Below are positions 1,938 to 15,664 of a DNA stretch of 64,000 nt, piece after piece. Position 1 is the first letter of the stretch. Every line of letters begins with the position of its first letter. Both the position numbers and the translations under genes were made by a program. Below the pieces are notes generated by a model, which was not told where the DNA came from, made no database searches, and saw nothing but the letters and a program-made list of their open reading frames with translations. The DNA comes from Lachnospiraceae bacterium (GTDB lineage: Bacteria > Bacillota > Clostridia > Lachnospirales > Lachnospiraceae), in contig JAILKJ010000016.1 in the NCBI GenBank assembly GCA_024693845.1, positions 1 to 64,000 of the forward strand, given 5' to 3'.

Positions 1938-4900
1938 ATGCCCAGAAAAAAGCTTTACGATAAAGAAATGATCCGCCGGTACGGAGGAAAGTATGCCCGT
2001 GGTAACGCAGGTTTTTCCCTGAGTATGAATCTTTTCCGCGGTACGGGAATGGCGTCGCTGATCACGCCCCCTATCGACGGGGTTACCGGGCTGGGAAAAC
2101 CCACCAAGGTTGACCATGCCACCTATGTGAACGAACTGTACAGCGAGGTCAGTCAGAGTGCGGAGGTTTTGGAAGAGAAGGTCTACGGAGATCTGCACAT
2201 GTCCTCCGGCAAGTCTGCCATCATCAACGGCTGGGGAGGAGATCCCGAAAGCAAAAACAAGCTCTATGCCGTTATGAAGGAAGACAAACAGAGGGTTGAC
2301 GGGTATGTTAAGGGATTGTTCGGCGATGCCAAGCCCTTTAGCGAATATATTGCCTATAACAATTATTTAGCCATTCCGGAAGGGGATTTTGCGGAAGGAT
2401 ATCTGGATAATCCTTACCTGCATTATCTGAGCAACACCATTATCGGCGGAGGTCCCAAGCTGGGACAGATCGAAGAAAACGGTGAGGTGCTCAAGGATGC
2501 AAACGGTCTTCCCGTCATCGATTTCAAGACGGCCAGAGAGGGGCTTCAGGGTGAGCCTTACAACGGCGCTTTGGGCGTATATAATGAGCTTTGCGCTGCT
2601 TCCCGCCAGCTCTGGGAAAGGGAGTTTGAGAGACAGACGCTGGTAGCGGGCGGTTATACGGCCCAGCAGGAAAAAGCGTATCTGATCCGTCTGCATGATG
2701 ATTTTAATAAGATGCAGACCGCCTATATGCACGCCTGCGAGGTGGAGGAGGCAAATCCCGATAAGTACGATGACACCTTTATGAACAACTCCCTGGCTGA
2801 ACTTACCGGCGTGAAGGTGGGCGAGGACCGGGGTATCTATGGTGTGATGGGCTATATAGAGGGCATGCAGAAGGCCATCGAAAACGGCTGGGGGATCGGC
2901 GAAATGGATCCTCTGGGTTATGTGGGCTATCATGAAAGATACCTGAAAAAGGAGCTGGAGAATAATGCCCACCATATCAGCACCTGTGAAAAAGAGATCC
3001 AAAAATACGAAAAGGAGCTGGAAACCCTTCAGGATCCTGCCCGGATCGAGACCACCAATGCAAGGCTGACAGAAAGCCGCAATAAGCTGGAGGCTTATAA
3101 GGGGATCAAATCCAATCTGGAGCTGATGCAGACCGGCTTGCAGGACCTGAAAAAAGAGGTATGGGATAAGAAAGTCACCAATGCCGCAGAGAAGCTGGAA
3201 GTTTTTCAGAAGATCGAACAGTATCGTGAGTCTATCCGAAATATCAAGATCGCTGACAAGCTCACCAACGATAAGGAACTTTTTTACGGATCTGACACCG
3301 GCAAGATGCATCAGACCCTTCTGGACAACTGCAAGGATCGTCTATTGGCAGGTGTTGGGGCGTCCAATGAGCAGGAACTGGTGACCACCAGGAAAAACAG
3401 TTTTATTGCCCAGGGACAGGAGGCAGCCGGCCGCCTTGCCGAGCTGGATCAGAAGGAAGAGGAGCGTCTGGCCGAAAAGAGAGAAGAGTTCGGGGCCGAC
3501 TATGATCCTGTAAAAAGTGAAGCCGATCCGGAAGATCGTGCCGATTATTATGCCTATATGGAAGAGGCACAGTATCAGGAATACAGAGTGGTACTGGGCA
3601 AACTGGCCGAGCGTTTTGATGAGATCTATGATGTGAAGGATGCCCAAAAGTTCATGGACAGCCTGATCGATAAGTATGACCTGACCGTGGAAGACGGTGT
3701 CCTGAAAGCAGACGGCAGGGAGGTTGCGCCGGGCAGCAGGATCGACAGGCAGATGACAGAGGAGATCGCCACATTCACACAGCAGCAGAAGGAAAAGAGC
3801 CATCAGAGGGATCTGCAGGATCAGTCGGATATCAGCCGCGGTCTGGCACCGAATCCCCTGTATGCACAGAATCCGCAAAATGCCGTGGAGGCGCCGGATG
3901 CAGAGAACATCAGAGCCTATATTGACCTGAAATTTGAGGCACAGAGACTGGCGGACCGGCAGAAAGCCGGAGATTTTACCGCGGATGCGGATCCCATCAA
4001 CCATCCGGGAAGGATCGAAGGGGGAGAGGAAAAGGATCCCTTCGCCTATGTAAAGCAGCTGGAGGAGCAGGCCGCCGCAACCGGTAATTTCAAGCCCTTT
4101 GTTAAGGCGTTCAACGAGCTGACTTTGCAGTATACGGAAGGAAGAATGAATCCGGAGCAGGAGGAAGCCTTCGAAAACTACAGAGACAGCGTGCTTCAAA
4201 AGGGCGGAGATTTTCTCAAAGGCTTCATTACGGAACAGACGGCTGCTTATCTGGACCAGTCCATCGCACTGGCCCAGAGCACGGAGATTCTGGCGGAAGA
4301 GATCCGAAACGGCAGTGTTTCCGTGGACCCGAAACTGGAGCCCATCAAAGATGATTATCGCGTCAGCAAGACCGTTGCCGGTCTTATGCTCAAGGACGGT
4401 TATCTGAAGCGGATGATGAATGCCGCCATGGAGAACAATCTCCACTTCGGTGAGCATGTTGCCGGGTACGATGAGTTTGTTCTGGCGGCAGAGAAAAACC
4501 TTATGAACAAGGAGGCAGACGGCCTTTCCGTTTCCCAGAGGAAACGCCTGAGGCAAGAGGGAGAGAGGGAGTTTTCCCATAATCTGACTGTCTACGGACT
4601 GGATACGGATGCGCAGCTTCGCATTACCGACAATGTAAATCAGGAAAGTCTTTATGAAGAGTATTTAAAAAGCTTTCAGAAGGCCAGCGCATATGCCGAG
4701 GAGATGGAAAAAATGCGTTCGGAGGCAGCGGTGAAGCTGGATGGTCTCCGGGAACTGGAGAAGCTTCGAAGCAATAATTCGCCCCAGTTTACGGCTATGG
4801 TAAAGGCTCTTGAGAATGTCAGCAAGCTCAGCATGGACAGCACACCGGCCCAGGTGGATGATACTCTTAACGATCTTCGCAAGGCATCCGAAGCATACAA

Positions 4901-5585
4901 GGATAAGATCGATCATCAGTTTATGGCGGGAACCTTCAGTACCGGAAGCCGCCGCTATGCCTTCGCAGATGATCTGATCACTTTTTCAAATGACAGGAGC
5001 CGGACCCTGGGCGAAAAGGGAGCGGGAGCTGTTGCGCAGAATGGAATAATCGGCGATCAGCTGGAGAATACTTATAAACGCATGACGGCCCAGGAAAAGA
5101 AGGTCTGTGATCCCATTAAGCCGGGAAAAGCAGCCAAAGAGGCCCTCAAAGCAAAGCAGGAACAGATCAGGAATCTGAAATTTGATGAAAAGACAACGGT
5201 GGAAGCAGCCAGATATCTGTTGGGGAAGGAGCTTGCCGAGCTGGTAGCCATCAAGACCGTGGCGGACACTTTTAAGGGTCAGGAGCCCGAGAAATTCGTG
5301 GGATTCCAGGATAATAAGCTGGTGACCACCCGTATGAGCAATAACCACGAAAAAACCTTCCTTACGCCGGAGAAGCTGGAAACGGCCAAGGCCAAGGTCA
5401 TGCAGCAGAAGCCCTTCCAGAAGCTGGTCAACTCCGCCAAGACCATGGAGGATCTGAAAACGCTGAAGACCATGGCTTTGGATAAGAACGCCAAAAGCCT
5501 CATGGTGGAGATGAAGAAACATGATAAGGCTCCGGAGATCCAGCAGCAGAAAGACAAGAAAGTGAATCAAGTGAAAGGATTGTAA
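1938..5585 (+). CDS. Large helical protein of unknown function (1215 aa)
   Basis: No known family is recognised. The protein has no signal peptide and no obvious membrane segment, so it should be cytoplasmic. The N-terminal 120 residues contain a Gly-rich stretch (LITPPIDGVTGLGKP, near 41-55). Most of the rest is predicted helical and very rich in Glu, Lys, Gln and Ala, with coiled-coil-like heptads around residues 340-440 (KEIQKYEKELETL) and again near 900-980. The C-terminus is strongly basic. The start follows AGGAGAACGGTT. The next gene starts one base after this stop, so it forms an operon with the YuiD-type gene. Its size and lack of recognisable domains make it a real orphan. Confidence 0.85.
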   Translation: MPRKKLYDKEMIRRYGGKYARGNAGFSLSMNLFRGTGMASLITPPIDGVTGLGKPTKVDHATYVNELYSEVSQSAEVLEEKVYGDLHMSSGKSAIINGWGGDPESKNKLYAVMKEDKQRVDGYVKGLFGDAKPFSEYIAYNNYLAIPEGDFAEGYLDNPYLHYLSNTIIGGGPKLGQIEENGEVLKDANGLPVIDFKTAREGLQGEPYNGALGVYNELCAASRQLWEREFERQTLVAGGYTAQQEKAYLIRLHDDFNKMQTAYMHACEVEEANPDKYDDTFMNNSLAELTGVKVGEDRGIYGVMGYIEGMQKAIENGWGIGEMDPLGYVGYHERYLKKELENNAHHISTCEKEIQKYEKELETLQDPARIETTNARLTESRNKLEAYKGIKSNLELMQTGLQDLKKEVWDKKVTNAAEKLEVFQKIEQYRESIRNIKIADKLTNDKELFYGSDTGKMHQTLLDNCKDRLLAGVGASNEQELVTTRKNSFIAQGQEAAGRLAELDQKEEERLAEKREEFGADYDPVKSEADPEDRADYYAYMEEAQYQEYRVVLGKLAERFDEIYDVKDAQKFMDSLIDKYDLTVEDGVLKADGREVAPGSRIDRQMTEEIATFTQQQKEKSHQRDLQDQSDISRGLAPNPLYAQNPQNAVEAPDAENIRAYIDLKFEAQRLADRQKAGDFTADADPINHPGRIEGGEEKDPFAYVKQLEEQAAATGNFKPFVKAFNELTLQYTEGRMNPEQEEAFENYRDSVLQKGGDFLKGFITEQTAAYLDQSIALAQSTEILAEEIRNGSVSVDPKLEPIKDDYRVSKTVAGLMLKDGYLKRMMNAAMENNLHFGEHVAGYDEFVLAAEKNLMNKEADGLSVSQRKRLRQEGEREFSHNLTVYGLDTDAQLRITDNVNQESLYEEYLKSFQKASAYAEEMEKMRSEAAVKLDGLRELEKLRSNNSPQFTAMVKALENVSKLSMDSTPAQVDDTLNDLRKASEAYKDKIDHQFMAGTFSTGSRRYAFADDLITFSNDRSRTLGEKGAGAVAQNGIIGDQLENTYKRMTAQEKKVCDPIKPGKAAKEALKAKQEQIRNLKFDEKTTVEAARYLLGKELAELVAIKTVADTFKGQEPEKFVGFQDNKLVTTRMSNNHEKTFLTPEKLETAKAKVMQQKPFQKLVNSAKTMEDLKTLKTMALDKNAKSLMVEMKKHDKAPEIQQQKDKKVNQVKGL

Positions 5586-7793: not shown

Positions 7794-7822
7794 TTGACTT
7801 GACAGGGTGGCTATGGTAAAAT
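7794..7822 (+). promoter_or_regulatory. Promoter of the TPR/AAA-like gene and glgB
   Basis: TTGACT (7794-7799) and TAAAAT (7817-7822) are spaced by 17 bases, and a TGG precedes the -10. A second -35-like TTGACA at 7799-7804 overlaps it. Transcription would begin near 7829, giving a leader of about 43 bases. Confidence 0.8.
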
Positions 7823-7871: not shown

Positions 7872-10800
7872 GTGGACAAGTACGAATACAGGATCCGCGC
7901 CGAGGAGATCAATTCACTCATTGAACAGGGAGAGTTTTCCGAAGCGCTCAAGATAGCCGAGACCATTGATTGGAGACGGGTAAGATCCGTCGTGATGCTC
8001 TGCAAGGTCAGCGAGCTTTATAAAATGAACCGTCAGTATGAGGAGAGTAAAGAGATCCTCCTGATGGCTAATGATATCAAACCCAATTCCAGAAAAGTGA
8101 TCTATTCTCTTTGTGAGCTGTCCATCAAGCTGGAGGAGACGGTACAGGCCGTGGAGTACTACAAGCAGTACATCCAGATCGCTCCCAGGGATGCGGATCG
8201 TTTTATTCTTCAGTATCGTCTGTACGAGGCCCAGGATGTATCCCTCGAAGAGAGGATCGCCGTCCTCGAAGAATTCAAGAAACGTGATTATCAGGAAAAA
8301 TGGGCGTATGAGCTTGCCTATCTGTACCACAGGATCGGGCTTGCGACGCGATGTGTAGAGGAGTGCGATGAGCTCATCCTCTGGTTTGTTGACGGCAAAT
8401 ATGTCATCAAGGCCATGGAGCTGAAGATGCTCCACGCACCGCTGACACCGTCCCAGCAGGAAAAATACAATGCCCGCTTCATGGAGCAGCAGGAGGCTAT
8501 CGCCCTTGCCGACGAGACGGTGGAGGAAGAGGATAATGAGCCTGTTCCCGAACCTTCCATGAGCATCAGCGTTAAGAAAGTGGAGCCTACGAAGGCCAAG
8601 ACCACCAGGATCTCCAAGCTTCGCGTCAGGAAGGATCCCGACAGTGAGGAAGAGATCTGGGAGGAAGAAACAAGAGAGCCTGAAGCAGATCAGATACCCG
8701 AGCAGATCCCGCAGGAAGAGCTTCTTTCCGAGGAAGAAGATACAGAGGATGAGGATATCAGGATCGCACCGGATGCCGGAAGAGCACCTACCATCGATCT
8801 CGGCGGTGCCATCAAAAACGTGATCATCCCCCAGCGAAATACGGATGAGCTTTCCAGACAGGCCATGGAGGATGCCCTTGCCTATGAAAGAGCTTATCAG
8901 CAGGCGGAAGCCGTCAGGGATGCATCCGAGGAGGACGAGGATGCGGATATGAAGATCGCGCCGGACCGCAGGGCAGCGGAACCGGTGGAAGATGAGGACA
9001 TGCGCATCATCACTCCGGATGCGGATGAGATCCAGGTTCGCACCATTGATGCGGGCAACCGTTTTGATACCATGAACCTGGAGGAGGAGACTACGAAATA
9101 CCTGGCAGGGGAGATCGTTAAGCTCATGGCTGAGGAGGATATGGAAGCAACCGATGCCACAAGAGCTCTTCCCATGAACTCCATTTTCCATGACAGCATC
9201 GATACCCTTGAGCCCCACATGATCAGCAAGGCCATGGAGATGGCCAAGGAAATGAACGATAAGAGGCTTGCCGAGGAGGCTGCTCAGTCAGTGTCCGATG
9301 AGCAGGCAGGCGAGCAGGATGATACGGCAGTAAATGAGGAGTATCCCGAAGGAACCGTAAGCGATGATCTTGAGGAGATCACCTACGAGGAAGAAGTATC
9401 GGAAGAAGAATATCCTGAGGAGGAGTACCCTGAGGAGGAATATCCTGAAGAAGCCGTAACCGAGGATCTTGAAGAGATCACCTACGAGGAAGAGGCTTCC
9501 GAAGAGGAGTATGAGCAGGAATATCCTGAGGAAGAATATCCCGAGGAGGAGTATCCAGAAGGAGAGTATCCTGAGGAGGGTGTGACCGAGGATCTCGAGG
9601 AGATCACTTACGAAGAAGAGGAAGAGGCCTCCGGAGAGGAGTATGAGCAGAAATATCCTGAGGAAGAATATCCCGAAGAGGAGTATCCCGGAGAAGAGTA
9701 TCCTGAGGAAGCCGTAACCGAGGATCTTGAAGACATGGCCTACGAGATGGACTTCTGGGAGGAAGAAACGTCAGGCGACGATCTTGAGGAGATCACCTAT
9801 GAAGAAGAGATCCCCGAAGAAGAAATTACTGAAGAAGTAACTCAAGAGGAGGAGACAAAAGAGGAATATCCCCAGGAGGCCGTGACTGAAGACCTCGAGG
9901 AGATCACTTACGAAGAAGAGAATCCTGAAGAGATAACGGAAGGGCCCGAAGTAAAGCCCCTTGTATTTTCCCAGAGCAAGCCCCTTCCCAAGGAATTCAT
10001 TGAGGCGGTTCAGATCGTAGCCATGGAGGCAGCCAAGGAGGCAGCGGCAGCAGCGGCTTCGGCAGCGGCAGCGGCGGCAGCCAAGGAGGCGGCATCGGCA
10101 GTGGCACAGGAAGCAGCCACCCAGGCGGCGGAGGTAGCCACCCAGGCAGCAAGACAGGCTGCCATGGAAGCAGCCCATGCGACTGCGGACGCCATCCGTG
10201 AGATCCAGCCTCTGCCCGATGAGAGTGAAGAAGCGGAAGAGGCAGCCGCCGAGATCGAGGAAAAAGAAGAAGCGGCGCCCGAGCAGCCCATGGTGGAGAA
10301 ACAGATCACGGGCCAGCTGAGCTTTAAGGATATCATTGCCGACTGGGAAGATGCCAAGAAGGCCAATGAAGAGAAGCATATCGAAGAAATGAAACAGAGA
10401 GTCAAGGAGCAGACAGGTCCCCTGTTTGCGGATTTTGATGCGGCAAGGGCTTCCAGAGGAAGCGATCTTGACATGTTAAGCCCCGTGCTCGATGTCTTCC
10501 ATGAGACAGAGGATCTGGCTCAGGAGGTAGAGCAGGCTCTCAATGAAGAGATACAGGAATCCGAAGAGGTTTATTACGGTGCGGATCCCGAGGAGGAAGT
10601 TTCGGAAGAACCTGTTGCTACAGCGGAAGAGGCTGAGGCCGGGGCCCCGGAAGCTTCCGGGATCGAAGAAGCAGAAGAATCTGAAGAAGGTTTCGAGGTT
10701 GCGGAAGCTGAAGAAGCTGTATCAGTGGAAGAAGCTGAGGAAGCATCCGCTCTGGCAGATAAGCCCAACAGCTTCAATACCGCCGAGATCAACGGACTGG

Positions 10801-12050
10801 AGGATAAACTCCTTTCCGCCCTGGAAGGCCAGCATTACGACACCTCCAATCTGCAGGCCGAGATCCTTCAGAATATACTGAAGGAGGAGGAGAAGGCAGA
10901 GGAAGAACCGACTGATAAGCCCGTGGCAGAAGAACCGATGGTTGAGTCCGCAGTGGCGGCAGAACCGGTGAACAGCGCGGCAGTGGCATCCTCCGGAGCT
11001 ACCAGTGCAGCAGAGGCAGTAGCCCTTGCCAAGGCTCTGGCCAAGGCGGAAGCCATGAGAAACGCCCGGGAGCAGGAAAGCACCACCCCGGCAGTTGAGA
11101 CAGTGCCCACAGCACAGCCGATAGCAGTAGCTGTTGAAGAACCGGCAGAACCCGCAGTAGCGGCAGAACCGGCATCGGTAGTTACAGCACAGCCGGCAGA
11201 GGAATCCGTGGCCACAGCTGCAGAAGTCCCTGTGGCAGCAGAACCCGCAGTAGCGGCAGAACCGGACCAGGAAGCAGCCCCTGAGACTCAGGTCGAAGAG
11301 GAAGGCAGACTGCTGACCCGGGAGGAAAAAGACAAACTGGGCAGCGTTGCTTCGAATAAGGAGATGCAGCAGAGATTTGCCAGAGCCATCGACAATGTTT
11401 CTCTGGTACCGCTTACCGGCAATATCCTTCTGATGGGAGAAAAAGGAACCGATGCAGAGTTGACCGCAAGGGATCTTTTAAGGATCATCGGAACGGATCA
11501 TCCCTCTGTGCTTGAGGTCATGGGTGCCTTTACGGCGGAAGAGATCTCCGGCAAGGACATCGAGACTACACTGTTCTCCCTTGACAGAGGATCTCTGATC
11601 ATTGAGCAGGCAGGTGATCTTTCCACGGATGTCTGCAACAGGATCTTTGCAAAAGCCCAGACGCTGAGCAGCATCCTGCTGATCTTTGTGGATACGCCGG
11701 AGAACATGGAGAAGCTCTATCGCAGCTATCCCAAGCTGGGGGATTATTTCACGAACCGTGTTCAGATCGATGTGCTGGATAATGATGGCCTTGTGAAGTT
11801 TGCTCAGGCATATGCCAATGAGAAGGAATACTCGATCGACGAGATGGGTAAGCTTGCCCTCTACAACAGGATCGAGGATAAGCAGCGAAGTGATCATGCA
11901 GTGACCGTTGACGAGGTAAAACAGATCGTGGACGAGGCTATCGGAAAGGCTGATAAGAAGAGTGTGGGCCATCTGATGGACATCGTTTTTGCCAAGCGGT
12001 ATGATAAGGAAGACATGATCGTGCTGCGGGAAAAAGATTTTATGGAGTAA
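7872..12050 (+). CDS. TPR / acidic-repeat / Ala-rich / AAA-like protein (1392 aa)
   Basis: Translation starts at GTG after TTAGGAGAG. Residues 1-200 look like TPR-type helical repeats (QYEESKEILLMANDIKP, AVEYYKQYIQIAPRDADR). Residues 200-490 are acidic linker. Residues 490-690 are tandem repeats built from EEYPEEEYPEE and DLEEITYEEE units. Residues 714-780 are an Ala-rich helix. The last 250 residues resemble a degenerate AAA+ domain: LTGNILLMGEKGTDAE is where a Walker A loop would be, but GKT is missing, and SILLIFVDTPENMEKL resembles a Walker B/sensor region. It lies 15 bases before glgB in what looks like a two-gene operon, which hints at a scaffold role in glycogen metabolism; that is inference only. 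Confidence 0.8.
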   Translation: MDKYEYRIRAEEINSLIEQGEFSEALKIAETIDWRRVRSVVMLCKVSELYKMNRQYEESKEILLMANDIKPNSRKVIYSLCELSIKLEETVQAVEYYKQYIQIAPRDADRFILQYRLYEAQDVSLEERIAVLEEFKKRDYQEKWAYELAYLYHRIGLATRCVEECDELILWFVDGKYVIKAMELKMLHAPLTPSQQEKYNARFMEQQEAIALADETVEEEDNEPVPEPSMSISVKKVEPTKAKTTRISKLRVRKDPDSEEEIWEEETREPEADQIPEQIPQEELLSEEEDTEDEDIRIAPDAGRAPTIDLGGAIKNVIIPQRNTDELSRQAMEDALAYERAYQQAEAVRDASEEDEDADMKIAPDRRAAEPVEDEDMRIITPDADEIQVRTIDAGNRFDTMNLEEETTKYLAGEIVKLMAEEDMEATDATRALPMNSIFHDSIDTLEPHMISKAMEMAKEMNDKRLAEEAAQSVSDEQAGEQDDTAVNEEYPEGTVSDDLEEITYEEEVSEEEYPEEEYPEEEYPEEAVTEDLEEITYEEEASEEEYEQEYPEEEYPEEEYPEGEYPEEGVTEDLEEITYEEEEEASGEEYEQKYPEEEYPEEEYPGEEYPEEAVTEDLEDMAYEMDFWEEETSGDDLEEITYEEEIPEEEITEEVTQEEETKEEYPQEAVTEDLEEITYEEENPEEITEGPEVKPLVFSQSKPLPKEFIEAVQIVAMEAAKEAAAAAASAAAAAAAKEAASAVAQEAATQAAEVATQAARQAAMEAAHATADAIREIQPLPDESEEAEEAAAEIEEKEEAAPEQPMVEKQITGQLSFKDIIADWEDAKKANEEKHIEEMKQRVKEQTGPLFADFDAARASRGSDLDMLSPVLDVFHETEDLAQEVEQALNEEIQESEEVYYGADPEEEVSEEPVATAEEAEAGAPEASGIEEAEESEEGFEVAEAEEAVSVEEAEEASALADKPNSFNTAEINGLEDKLLSALEGQHYDTSNLQAEILQNILKEEEKAEEEPTDKPVAEEPMVESAVAAEPVNSAAVASSGATSAAEAVALAKALAKAEAMRNAREQESTTPAVETVPTAQPIAVAVEEPAEPAVAAEPASVVTAQPAEESVATAAEVPVAAEPAVAAEPDQEAAPETQVEEEGRLLTREEKDKLGSVASNKEMQQRFARAIDNVSLVPLTGNILLMGEKGTDAELTARDLLRIIGTDHPSVLEVMGAFTAEEISGKDIETTLFSLDRGSLIIEQAGDLSTDVCNRIFAKAQTLSSILLIFVDTPENMEKLYRSYPKLGDYFTNRVQIDVLDNDGLVKFAQAYANEKEYSIDEMGKLALYNRIEDKQRSDHAVTVDEVKQIVDEAIGKADKKSVGHLMDIVFAKRYDKEDMIVLREKDFME
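9331..9930 (+). repeat. In-gene tandem repeat coding for acidic YPEE/DLEEITYEEE units
   Basis: About 600 bases inside the giant acidic gene repeat the codons for EEYPEEEYPEE followed by VTEDLEEITYEEE, with about six copies of the DLEEITYEEE segment and one diverged copy (DLEDMAYEMD). The copies differ at third positions, so the array is old or under selection at the protein level. Confidence 0.85.
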
Positions 12051-12065: not shown

Positions 12066-13988
12066 ATGGCAAAAAAAGTAGTGAATCCGGTATTTTTGAC
12101 AGATGACGATCAGTATCTGTTCGCCCAGGGAACGCATTATGAGATCTATGAGAAGTTGGGCGCACACGAGACCACGGTAGACGGTCAGAAGGGCGTGTAC
12201 TTCGCTGTCTGGGCACCCAATGCACAGTATGTGAACGTGGTGGGTGATTTCAATGACTGGGATATCTACAAGGATAATATGCAGCGCCTGGGCGGCGGGC
12301 AGATCTTTGCACTGTTCATTCCGGGGGTGAAGAAGGGAGATCTTTACAAGTATGTGATCACGACCATGACCAACGAGAAGATCTACAAGGCCGATCCTTT
12401 TGCCAATTATGCGCAGCTTCGTCCCGAGACCGCTTCCATCGTAACGGACCTGAACGACTTCAAGTGGACCGATGATGCATGGCAGGAGGCCAAGGCAGAC
12501 AGGGATGTGCAGAATTCTCCCATGGCGATCTACGAGTGCCATATCGGTTCCTGGAAAAAGCATCCCGTAAACGATCCCGAAACGGAGGGAAATGGCTTTT
12601 ACAATTACCGCGAGTTTGCGGACAGTTTTGTGGAATACTGCAAGGATATGAAATATACCCATGTGGAGCTGATGGGCATCGCAGAGCATCCCTTTGACGG
12701 CTCCTGGGGCTATCAGGTGACCGGTTACTATGCACCGACTTCCCGTTACGGCGAGCCCACGGATTTCATGTATCTGGTCAATACTCTTCACAGGGCCGGG
12801 ATCGGTGTGATCCTGGACTGGGTGCCTGCCCACTTTCCCAAGGATGAATTCGGTCTTTCCATGTTTGACGGAACGCCGCTTTTTGAGTATGCGGATCCCC
12901 GCAAGGGAGAGCATCCCGACTGGGGTACCAAGGTATTTGACTTCGGTAAAAATGAGGTCAAGGACTTTTTGATCGCAAATGCCATGTTCTGGCTTAAGAA
13001 GTTCCATATTGACGGACTTCGTGTGGATGCCGTTGCTTCCATGCTGTATCTTGACTACGGCAGAAGAGACGGAGAATGGGTTCCCAACCGCTACGGCAAC
13101 AACAAGAACCTGGAAGCCATCGAATTCTTCAAGCATCTGAATTCCATGATCAAGACGGACTTCCCCGGCTGCATGATGATCGCAGAGGAATCCACGGCAT
13201 GGCCGCTGGTGACCGGCGAGCCGAGAGAGGGCGGTCTGGGCTTTACCTTTAAGTGGAACATGGGCTGGATGCATGATTTCTGTGCTTATATGAAGCTGGA
13301 TCCGATCCTCAGAAAGGGAGCTCATTACAATCTGACCTTTGCCATGAGCTATAACGAGGCTGAGAACTATATCCTGCCCATCTCCCATGACGAGGTAGTG
13401 CATCTGAAATGTTCCATGCTCAACAAGATGCCCGGCTTCTATGTGGACAAGTTCGCAAACCTCCGTGTAGGCTACACCTTCATGTTCACCCATTGCGGCA
13501 AGAAGCTTCTGTTCATGGGTCAGGATTTCGGTCAGGACTGCGAGTGGTCCGAAGAAAGAGAGCTGGAGTGGCATTATCTGGCTGATCAGGAGCACGGCAG
13601 CCTGCATAACTACATGAAGAACCTGCTTCAGATCTACAACAAGTATCCGGCTCTGTACGAAAATGACAATAACTGGAAGAGCTTTGAATGGCTGAATCCC
13701 GACGACAAGGAGAACAGTATTTATTCCTACGTCCGCAAGTCATCCAACAATAAGAACAACCTTCTCATCCTTCTTAACATGACGCCGATGGAGAGGAAGA
13801 GCTATCGTGTGGGAGTACCGAAGAAGAAAAAATACAAGCTCCTGCTTAACAGCGATGAGCAGCAGTTCGGCGGAACCGGCATGAAGGTAGCCAAGGAGCT
13901 TTCCGCAAAAGCGGAGGATTGCCACGGCTGGGAGTATTCCATCCTGGTGGATCTGGCTCCCTATGCGGCTCACGTATACGTATACTAA
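12066..13988 (+). CDS. glgB: 1,4-alpha-glucan branching enzyme
   Basis: The 640-residue protein makes alpha-1,6 branches in glycogen. An N-terminal CBM48-like domain (GVYFAVWAPNAQYVNVVGDFNDW) precedes the GH13 barrel. Catalytic positions are visible: the nucleophile Asp in GLRVDAVASM (near 320), the general acid Glu in MIAEES (near 373), and the SHDE motif (LPISHDEVVH) near 440. The C-terminal beta domain ends normally. It follows the TPR/AAA-like gene by 15 bases. Glycogen phosphorylase lies 7 kb downstream, so glycogen turnover is well represented here. Confidence 0.97.
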   Translation: MAKKVVNPVFLTDDDQYLFAQGTHYEIYEKLGAHETTVDGQKGVYFAVWAPNAQYVNVVGDFNDWDIYKDNMQRLGGGQIFALFIPGVKKGDLYKYVITTMTNEKIYKADPFANYAQLRPETASIVTDLNDFKWTDDAWQEAKADRDVQNSPMAIYECHIGSWKKHPVNDPETEGNGFYNYREFADSFVEYCKDMKYTHVELMGIAEHPFDGSWGYQVTGYYAPTSRYGEPTDFMYLVNTLHRAGIGVILDWVPAHFPKDEFGLSMFDGTPLFEYADPRKGEHPDWGTKVFDFGKNEVKDFLIANAMFWLKKFHIDGLRVDAVASMLYLDYGRRDGEWVPNRYGNNKNLEAIEFFKHLNSMIKTDFPGCMMIAEESTAWPLVTGEPREGGLGFTFKWNMGWMHDFCAYMKLDPILRKGAHYNLTFAMSYNEAENYILPISHDEVVHLKCSMLNKMPGFYVDKFANLRVGYTFMFTHCGKKLLFMGQDFGQDCEWSEERELEWHYLADQEHGSLHNYMKNLLQIYNKYPALYENDNNWKSFEWLNPDDKENSIYSYVRKSSNNKNNLLILLNMTPMERKSYRVGVPKKKKYKLLLNSDEQQFGGTGMKVAKELSAKAEDCHGWEYSILVDLAPYAAHVYVY

Positions 13989-14004: not shown

Positions 14005-14039
14005 CACCCCGCCGAAATTGTTTCGGCGGGGTGGTTTTT
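14005..14039 (+). terminator. Terminator after glgB
   Basis: A 13-base-pair perfect stem, CACCCCGCCGAAA (14005-14017) with its complement at 14021-14033, encloses a 3-base loop and is followed by TTTTT. It lies between convergent genes and could also act weakly on the minus strand. Confidence 0.9.
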
Positions 14040-14047
14040 CGGAATCC

Positions 14048-15664
14048 TTACCTGATAGTGATCTTTACATTTTTCTTTATGATCTTTGATTTGTACTTTT
14101 CATTTCCTGCAGCTTTTACCTCGATCTTCAAAGTATATACACCTTTCGGGATCTTTTTCCGGACCGTGATCTTTTTGGAGGAAGAATTGACCTTAAAGAG
14201 CTTTTTGAATGCGGCCTTTTTGCTCTTTCCTTTTTGTACACTTACCAGTCTGTAGGTTACTTTTCCCTTGGCATTTTTAACGGTGATGACCTTTGAAAGC
14301 TTGACATTGACTTTCTTCTTATCCGTTTTGGTTTTTTGCAGGGTGAGCTGTTTTGTTTTAAGCGTTATGGTATTGGCTGCTTTTTCCGTCTTCTGCGTTT
14401 TGGGCGGGGTTACGGTGGGTGTATCCTTGGGGGCCTCCTTCCAGGAAGCATAGACATCCAGGTTCAGCTCACTCTTTGATACATTGGAAGCATCGCCTTC
14501 CCAGTTGGGGCGGCATTTCGTTGTGTTCAGGTTCGTGAAGGGCTGATGTGCCCCCTCTTCATCAATATAATACCAGCCGTCAAAGGTGTAGCCGCTTCTT
14601 AAGGGAGCGGTTTCAAGACCTGCCTTTGAAAAAGTGTTCTCATCCCAATAGGCCTCATAGATCCAGTTCTTCTGTCCCAGGATCGTACCGCCCTCGGCGT
14701 GGTAAGTGATGGTATAGTTATCTTCAAAGTTGGGATAGACGGTAAACTGTGAAACACCGGGTTCCGTAATGGCCCATTTGCCGGGGGTAAAGCTGATGGT
14801 AGTGGTGCTCATGCCGTTGTCACCGAAAACGCGGGCTTCCTTTGGGTTATCAAAACCGAGATAGGGTGTGGCTTCCCAGCAGGTAAAGTGCCTTCCGGCG
14901 GAGACAGGATCGTTGACTACCACCTGATAGGCTTCGTTTCCGTTGTACCAGACCGGACAGGTTTCAGCAGGGCTTTTTGCTCCCTGGAAGGTGATGTCGG
15001 TTACATCTTCATGGCGATGGATATCCCAGTTAATGGTCCATTTTGCGGGATACCAGTAGGCTTTGTAGCGCAGGGTCTTGATCTGGGTCTGGGAGATCAT
15101 GGCGCCTTCGGCATCATAAGTGTTGCCGCTGATGGTCTGATAATCTCCTCTATCGGTCAGGAAGGCGGCATAGTTTTCCGTGTTGTTGGTGAAGGAGGTG
15201 TAGCCTTCCGTTAAGTAGAAGGTTTCATTTTTCTCTTCTCCGGGTTTATAACTGATCTGAGCCGTATTTTCACTGATCTGACCGGAGGCCGTAAACCTGG
15301 GTGTCGCTCCAGGGGTGAAATCATAAATGTCGCTGATCACCATACCGGCGGTCTTCAGCTTTACAGCACACGCTTTGCCAGTGTTTCCGATGGGTTGTGT
15401 GTACTCATCATCAAACACATTAAAGGAAACCGTCTCCCCGGGCATGACCAGGTATCCGTCGACGTTCTTGGGTAGCGACTGGATATAGCTGCCGTAGTTG
15501 TCATGGGTTATGCTCCAAGTCTGTCCCCAGGAAGGGGGATAGGCGGCTTTGACCGAAAGATTGCCGGAAAGCGCACCTGCCGGCAGAAAGGTCGCCAGCA
15601 GAGCCATGATCAGGCACCATGCTATGTGAAGTCGTATTTTGGATAATGCACTTTTTGATCTCAT
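14048..15664 (-). CDS. Secreted surface protein with InlB-type repeat and basic C-terminal domain
   Basis: The 538-residue product starts with a clear signal peptide (positive n-region, then WCLIMALLATFLPAGALS, cleavage likely near VKAA). The middle contains beta-rich segments and at least one Listeria/Bacteroides InlB B-repeat, seen as YTITYHAEGGT with SGYTFDGWYY (near 320-370). After a Pro/Thr linker the last 110 residues form a very Lys-rich domain (TLQKTKTDKKKVNVKL). Such basic tails recur in Lachnospiraceae exported proteins and may bind anionic cell-wall polymers, which is inference. No LPXTG motif is present. It is convergent with glgB and stands alone. Confidence 0.8.
   Translation of the reverse strand: MRSKSALSKIRLHIAWCLIMALLATFLPAGALSGNLSVKAAYPPSWGQTWSITHDNYGSYIQSLPKNVDGYLVMPGETVSFNVFDDEYTQPIGNTGKACAVKLKTAGMVISDIYDFTPGATPRFTASGQISENTAQISYKPGEEKNETFYLTEGYTSFTNNTENYAAFLTDRGDYQTISGNTYDAEGAMISQTQIKTLRYKAYWYPAKWTINWDIHRHEDVTDITFQGAKSPAETCPVWYNGNEAYQVVVNDPVSAGRHFTCWEATPYLGFDNPKEARVFGDNGMSTTTISFTPGKWAITEPGVSQFTVYPNFEDNYTITYHAEGGTILGQKNWIYEAYWDENTFSKAGLETAPLRSGYTFDGWYYIDEEGAHQPFTNLNTTKCRPNWEGDASNVSKSELNLDVYASWKEAPKDTPTVTPPKTQKTEKAANTITLKTKQLTLQKTKTDKKKVNVKLSKVITVKNAKGKVTYRLVSVQKGKSKKAAFKKLFKVNSSSKKITVRKKIPKGVYTLKIEVKAAGNEKYKSKIIKKNVKITIR

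Follow-up and report, generated by a model that had tools for sequence, protein, structure and literature searches.

Protein X, encoded directly ahead of glgB in a 64,000-nucleotide window of a Lachnospiraceae bacterium genome (assembly GCA_024693845.1, contig JAILKJ010000016.1, positions 1 to 64,000 of the forward strand), joins a tetratricopeptide repeat (TPR) head, a long acidic middle and an AAA-fold tail. The family it represents is a near-universal trait of the Lachnospiraceae, and its tail is a member of the SpoVK/CbbX/EccA clade by fold, with closest similarity to CbbX, the activase of red-type Rubisco. We tentatively propose, at a probability of about 0.4, that X works not as a motor but as an adaptor or scaffold, that its main clients here are alpha-glucan enzymes and that its core task is wider. 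Nearly as likely, in our judgment, is a general role in which the genes beside X are convenient transcription partners.

Domain assignment and distribution of the X family

A Pfam scan of X returned zero matches of any kind, and NCBIfam gave weak matches only, to spore_V_K and CbbX in the tail and to MamA in the head. Profiles and structure models nevertheless bore out the order of parts that an earlier note had read from the DNA alone, namely a TPR head, acidic repeats, an Ala-rich stretch and an AAA-like tail (Table 1). AlphaFold modeled the tail as an AAA fold (predicted local distance difference test [pLDDT] score, 90.8), and a profile built from 29 tails had CbbX as its best match in the PDB (3zuh, 7.4e-21), with EccA1 (9lur) at 7.4e-13. 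CbbX was also closest in a Foldseek search of the tail model (E 9.3e-9, TM about 0.46) and in VIA-align 2 (Z 15.3 over 233 residues, root mean square deviation 8.4); so large a deviation suggests that the tail subdomains are probably turned relative to those of CbbX. RuvB is close behind by fold (Z 14.3), and the assignment therefore rests on the sequence profile. Among the NCBIfam models, spore_V_K matched 28 of the 29 tails and EccA matched 18, with scores well below the curated cutoffs for X itself (spore_V_K, 24.4 bits for the whole protein and 28.0 for the tail against 422.95 bits; CbbX, 18.2 against 459.25 bits).

The main survey covered 220 Lachnospiraceae genomes, one per genus, with head-profile matches accepted at E<=0.001. 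The X head was matched in 212 of these (one, G239, only at 1.8e-4), and X is single-copy in most genomes; of the 8 with no head match, G079 and G136 still carry the tail. A first survey using the whole protein had found X in 34 of 37 genomes of the same family, its own included, and in none of 24 outside the family but within the order. A head search of 117 genomes yielded 34 matches, 14 in the same family and 20 in other families. We rejected the idea that X homologues occur broadly across the order, as the other-family matches are weak (best, 1.9e-13); three of those 20 (G288, G323 and G042) were inspected. At one other-family locus (L283, 4141-6402, minus strand), a protein truncated N-terminally by the contig end carries a TPR head and two tandem CbbX-type AAA domains with intact Walker motifs, an architecture that plausibly represents an ancestral or outgroup form of X. 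In one Lachnospiraceae genome (L287, 286-5888, minus strand), X is present as two adjacent genes, the first encoding a TPR head with acidic repeats and the second a Lys/Ala/Glu-rich stretch with the AAA tail, an arrangement that hints at joint action of head and tail. Our literature search found no published account of the X family.

The head, the most conserved part of X, was modeled as 12 helices (pLDDT 90.3), and a 29-row head profile matches TPR structures. Its fold search returned designed TPRs, MamA and the TPR domain of O-GlcNAc transferase. MamA, a magnetosome TPR scaffold, was the first natural TPR protein in that search (TMq 0.59-0.61) and a weak NCBIfam match of the head, below the cutoff of the model, but the similarity is of a generic TPR kind and there is no magnetosome context around X. 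A pair of cysteines, C161 and C165, is kept in nearly all heads, the three exceptions among 222 being two with S-C and one with A-A. Both S-C heads (L269 and L270) belong to genomes in which glgB had no match, an unexplained observation from two cases.

The middle of X (residues 207-1143) is 31% D+E and 6% K+R. Its acidic repeats differ in length and sequence between relatives, and the Ala-rich pattern is present in 7 of 26 full-length homologues, so that neither is a conserved feature of the family. Homologues range from 469 to 2,262 residues (median, 917; 129 proteins, the shortest of which include split or contig-cut ones), and the longest seen, of 2,473 residues, is encoded behind recR (L289, 5131-12549). 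Amid this variable middle, one inner motif is conserved, KQITGQLSFKDIIADWE, with the consensus (V/I)EKQITGQ(L/M)S(I/F)xD(I/V)(L/M)AEWE. A scan with a position-specific scoring matrix (PSSM) placed the motif above all shuffled scores in 76 of 78 named close relatives; across the genus-spread set, it did so at 59 of 65 glgB-linked loci, 3 of 8 amylase, 2 of 9 glgP, 2 of 5 SMC and 3 of 23 recR loci, and at 11 of 20 loci with other neighbors. Since the PSSM was trained on the same family, these counts measure conservation and are not an independent test, and the enrichment at glgB-linked loci is confounded by ancestry. The scan supersedes both a stricter regular expression, which counted 25 of 98, and an hmmsearch with the motif, which gave no matches. 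A second copy of the motif in the window's genome was ruled out, as the search returned only the motif itself at E<=10. The conservation of head, tail and inner motif across the family argues that these features of X are beyond chance.

The earlier note suggested an elongated scaffold, perhaps one that organizes glycogen granules. In a picture of this kind X would be a structural spacer, with the acidic repeats and an Ala-rich helix setting the distance between granules, and the elongated layout and the linkage to glgB would fit such an element. The two features that would set the spacing are, however, the ones that relatives do not conserve, the empty Pfam scan means that no carbohydrate-binding module was found in X, and X is kept in genomes where glycogen genes were not found (see below). 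We regard a granule spacer as very improbable.

The same note knew of no described protein with this order of parts, and here the description of EccA corrects it. EccA, the AAA chaperone of type VII secretion, pairs a TPR head with a CbbX-type AAA tail (PMC10659427), and the order of parts in X is therefore not unprecedented; the comparison is one of domain order, not of TPR-head homology. At least in the parts of that paper that deal with it, EccA acts with the type VII secretion system (T7SS) and no long acidic middle is described. The ATPase motifs, moreover, are degenerate in X. No T7SS gene was found among the named neighbors within a few genes of X, with a reference set that held no T7SS protein and with Pfam run on a selection only.

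ATPase motifs of the tail

The Walker A position of X reads GEKGTDAE, and the lack of a GKT motif noticed from the sequence is thus real. As a family trait it does not hold, since 68 of 129 genus-spread homologues keep G4xGK[T/S], against 0 of 72 close named tails. The P-loop count depends on the sample: a set of 103 tails, 72 of them from close relatives, gave 15, and the genus-spread set of 129 gave 68. The Walker B DE pair was found in 0 of 103 tails and is also absent among the pairs listed for 123 (the motif table holds 123 of the 129 rows, six having been dropped for gaps at the sites); EK is commonest there (45/123), and EE occurs in 15/123. Signatures of the SpoVK/CbbX/EccA clade include, in the relevant part of PMC10659427, a sensor-1 GY and an Asn ahead of the arginine finger. 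At the sensor-1 position, 72 of 123 tails have ED, and GY is not among the pairs listed; the CbbX Arg column is R in 13/123 and the Asn column N in 51/123, while the arginine-finger region in the window reads YPKLGDYF.

Judged by these motifs, loss of the P-loop appears local, whereas the Walker B pair, sensor-1 and the arginine finger appear eroded almost throughout, and the tail encoded in the window almost surely cannot hydrolyze ATP. CbbX, by comparison, keeps its Walker A and B motifs and its arginine fingers intact and is built without TPRs or an acidic linker; X lacks intact versions of these motifs and adjoins glgB. On a tree of X, the tails that lost the P-loop fall into two distinct groups, one being the 27-member clade of the window and the other the recR clade. 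This is a quick tree of X itself and not a species tree, unrooted and with two long branches flagged, on which gain or loss is a matter of reading. Eleven tails pair G4xG[K/R][T/S] with E at the second Walker B position, 9 of them without an Arg around the finger position. The earlier note had stated that its picture would fall if close homologues showed an intact AAA+ fold with a known function; the fold is indeed intact, and no family homologue of known function was found.

X might still be an ATP-driven chaperone of the activase type, its pseudo-AAA tail sharing mixed rings with an intact SpoVK-like AAA partner from another locus that would supply the nucleotide. The window's genome does encode such a protein (L257, 2515-3978, minus strand; G000:C32), with 488 residues and the motifs GNPGTGKT, FIDEAY and NPGFRSRF, and the P-loop kept in more than half of the genus-spread tails would be consistent with this reading. 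The intact paralogue is patchy, however: the tail profile gave only X in 6 of 12 matching genomes (G079, G097, G112, G219, G243 and G249), and the genes for X and the intact paralogue were not seen linked. We consider mixed rings improbable.

SpoVK, a chaperone of the glycosyltransferase MurG in sporulation, is a precedent for a chaperone dedicated to one enzyme. It also provides the best NCBIfam model for the tail, which would fit a place for X in the sporulation program, as the earlier note had partly suggested. According to the portion of PMC10659427 that treats it, SpoVK is specific to sporulators and an active ATPase, whereas X occurs in genomes without SpoIVA. SpoIVA was found in 144 of the 220 genomes. 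Of the 76 lacking it, 75 have the X head, among them the window's genome, where the SpoIVA search gave no match; SpoIVA is present in 7 of the 8 in which the head profile found nothing. This distribution contradicts a sporulation role, to which we give next to no probability.

Gene neighborhood and candidate clients

Among 80 named close relatives, glgB is next downstream of X in all 71 with room for it, and ksgA is next upstream in 64 of the 80; gap lengths in this set come from the longest possible glgB open reading frame (ORF), and no start-stop overlap is claimed. At the genus level we read 136 loci, some sharing a genome (G004, G006 and G010 contribute two each), and dropped 9 without room on one side, leaving 127; unannotated ORFs of <135 aa were skipped as neighbors. 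glgB follows X at 61 of these loci, glgP precedes it at 8 and follows it at 1, and an amylase gene follows it at 2, so that glgB, glgP or alpha-amylase adjoins X in 72/127 and lies within four downstream genes in 78/127. recR precedes X in 23/127, and ksgA stands on either side in 25/127. Linkage to glgB, which the earlier note had wished to see checked in relatives, was thus present in all close relatives with room and in about half of the genus-spread loci. ksgA is upstream of X in just 14 of the 61 loci followed by glgB, which indicates that linkage to glgB outlasts linkage to ksgA. Adjacency to glgB takes 7 changes on the X tree against a shuffled mean of 42.7, and adjacency to any alpha-glucan gene versus none takes 13. 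Inheritance therefore weighs heavily in the link, and independent events are modest in number.

For the role of X as an adaptor or scaffold for alpha-glucan enzymes, we infer every step past the domain assignment. The ancestor of the family would be a TPR protein that carried an AAA domain of the CbbX/SpoVK/EccA type. Its head may dock one partner, while the long acidic linker, via the conserved QITGQ(L/M)S..DI(L/M)..WE motif, would hold a second, and the AAA-fold tail, which in this lineage presumably no longer cycles ATP, would offer a surface for binding or assembly. Clients in the window's lineage would be mainly alpha-glucan enzymes, GlgB first, which is the favored client because of the shared transcript, and the older core task of the family would be wider than glycogen. 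Characterized members of the clade are narrow single-target chaperones, CbbX for Rubisco and SpoVK for MurG, as far as PMC10659427 covers them. X may keep this one-target logic and, in the window's lineage, do so without the motor.

Several observations weigh against this proposal. Much of the glgB linkage reflects shared ancestry, as the few changes on the X tree indicate, and the recR clade (23/127 loci) has no adjacent alpha-glucan gene. glgB was found in 211 of the 220 genomes. The other 9 have X, and glgB is present in each of the 8 where the head profile found nothing; the two have thus not been lost together. Two genomes, G219 (1.5 Mb, 95% complete) and G249 (99% complete), have no matches to glgB, phosphorylase or GT5 synthase, yet both the head and the tail of X are present. 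Unless sequencing missed the absent genes, X therefore cannot serve glycogen alone, and a role confined to glycogen was not sustained in these 2 of 220 genomes. Members of the family with a P-loop and EE at Walker B, furthermore, may still be ATPases. We also note that the window's genome has a second, longer glgB on contig C31.

The strongest competitor is a general cytoplasmic role for X, such as the assembly or quality control of a core complex, with glgB, glgP, recR and ksgA as mere transcription partners under slow drift of gene order. The presence of the head in 212 of 220 genomes, the retention of X where glycogen genes were not found, the variety of neighbors (recR, ksgA, an SMC-like gene and a DHH-CBS gene) and the small number of adjacency changes on the X tree are all consistent with it. 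Drift or chance offers no ready explanation, however, for the recurrence of different alpha-glucan genes (glgB, glgP and amylase) in different arrangements, with glgP even in a distant clade (L048). A bolder version of the adaptor proposal makes X the signature protein of the whole bacterial family: an activase-type AAA protein would have become an ATP-independent tether at least two independent times, in the window's glgB clade and in the recR clade, its fast-evolving acidic part between TPR head and pseudo-AAA tail bearing a single conserved motif for docking. It also holds that in most lineages it organizes alpha-glucan enzymes as an adaptor so far undescribed; we think this doubtful.

Some further neighbors recur. 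A gene of about 1,470 to 1,490 aa stands next to X in a distant clade (L042, 1770-6221), with a weak SMC-related NCBIfam match and no Pfam match at 1e-5, and genes of this type also lie upstream of X in L048, L049, L051, L058, L196, L240 and L286. A DUF6240 gene lies downstream of X-glgB and is followed by flagellin in L148 (9899-14204), and another directly follows X in L194 (4329-7418); ORFs of similar size come after glgB in many loci. The DUF6240 and flagellin genes possibly mark a motility-linked neighborhood.

The locus in the window and its wider meaning

The start position of X is shared by relatives (V/L-D-K..), and a ribosome-binding-like AGGAGAG lies just 5' of it. As the earlier note had stated, X stands directly ahead of glgB, the start of which is itself preceded by a purine-rich stretch. 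The promoter-like site upstream of X (Table 1) is one of 11 such sites in the region, where shuffled sequence would be expected to give 8.1. Elsewhere in the window, a 1,215-aa ORF (1938-5585, plus strand) gave 0 Pfam or NCBIfam matches and no BLAST match among the ORFs of 36 relatives' loci. Between glgB and ileS lies a 538-aa ORF (14048-15664, minus strand) with a signal-like start and repeats that may resemble InlB-type B repeats.

Table 1. Positions of X, its parts and the adjoining elements in the window
Feature	Position	Strand	Details
Promoter-like site	7794..7822	+	TTGACT-17-TAAAAT, TG ahead of second hexamer (extended -10); weak alone
Protein X ORF	7872..12050	+	1392 aa, GTG start; TPR head, acidic disordered-looking middle, CbbX-type AAA tail
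TPR head	7875..8489	+	Residues 2-206
C161-V-E-E-C165 (C-x3-C)	8352..8366	+	Both Cys kept in 219/222 heads covering the site
Acidic tandem repeat	9405..9746	+	EEYPEEEYPEE..TEDLEEITYEE; period 132 nt, 2.7 copies, score 449
Ala-rich stretch	10020..10175	+	Residues 717-768
Conserved inner module	10290..10430	+	Core motif KQITGQLSFKDIIADWED at 10299-10352
AAA tail	11301..12047	+	Residues 1144-1392, fold closest to CbbX
Walker A position	11436..11459	+	GEKGTDAE, no GK[T/S]
Walker B position	11589..11621	+	GSLIIEQAGDL; CbbX-type FIDEAY replaced by IIEQAG
glgB, 1,4-alpha-glucan branching enzyme	12066..13988	+	640 aa; 15 nt after X stop
Terminator-like stem	14005..14033	+	3' of glgB; 13 pairs (9 GC)

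Each part of X is known, as is the combination of TPRs with a CbbX-type AAA domain. What is new is the combination of a long acidic tether bearing a single conserved motif, an apparently stepwise loss of ATPase motifs, near-universality within one family and the alpha-glucan linkage. Lachnospiraceae count among the leading fermenters in gut and rumen, and a protein found in about 96% of the sampled genera and yet without a Pfam match is an obvious gap in the cell biology of this family. If the link to alpha-glucan enzymes is functional, X would offer a handle on the control of storage glycogen in the Lachnospiraceae. If our proposal is true, the family would also present an enzyme-activating AAA machine that loses its motor stepwise and yet stays useful, with states in which the P-loop is kept and lost coexisting for comparison.

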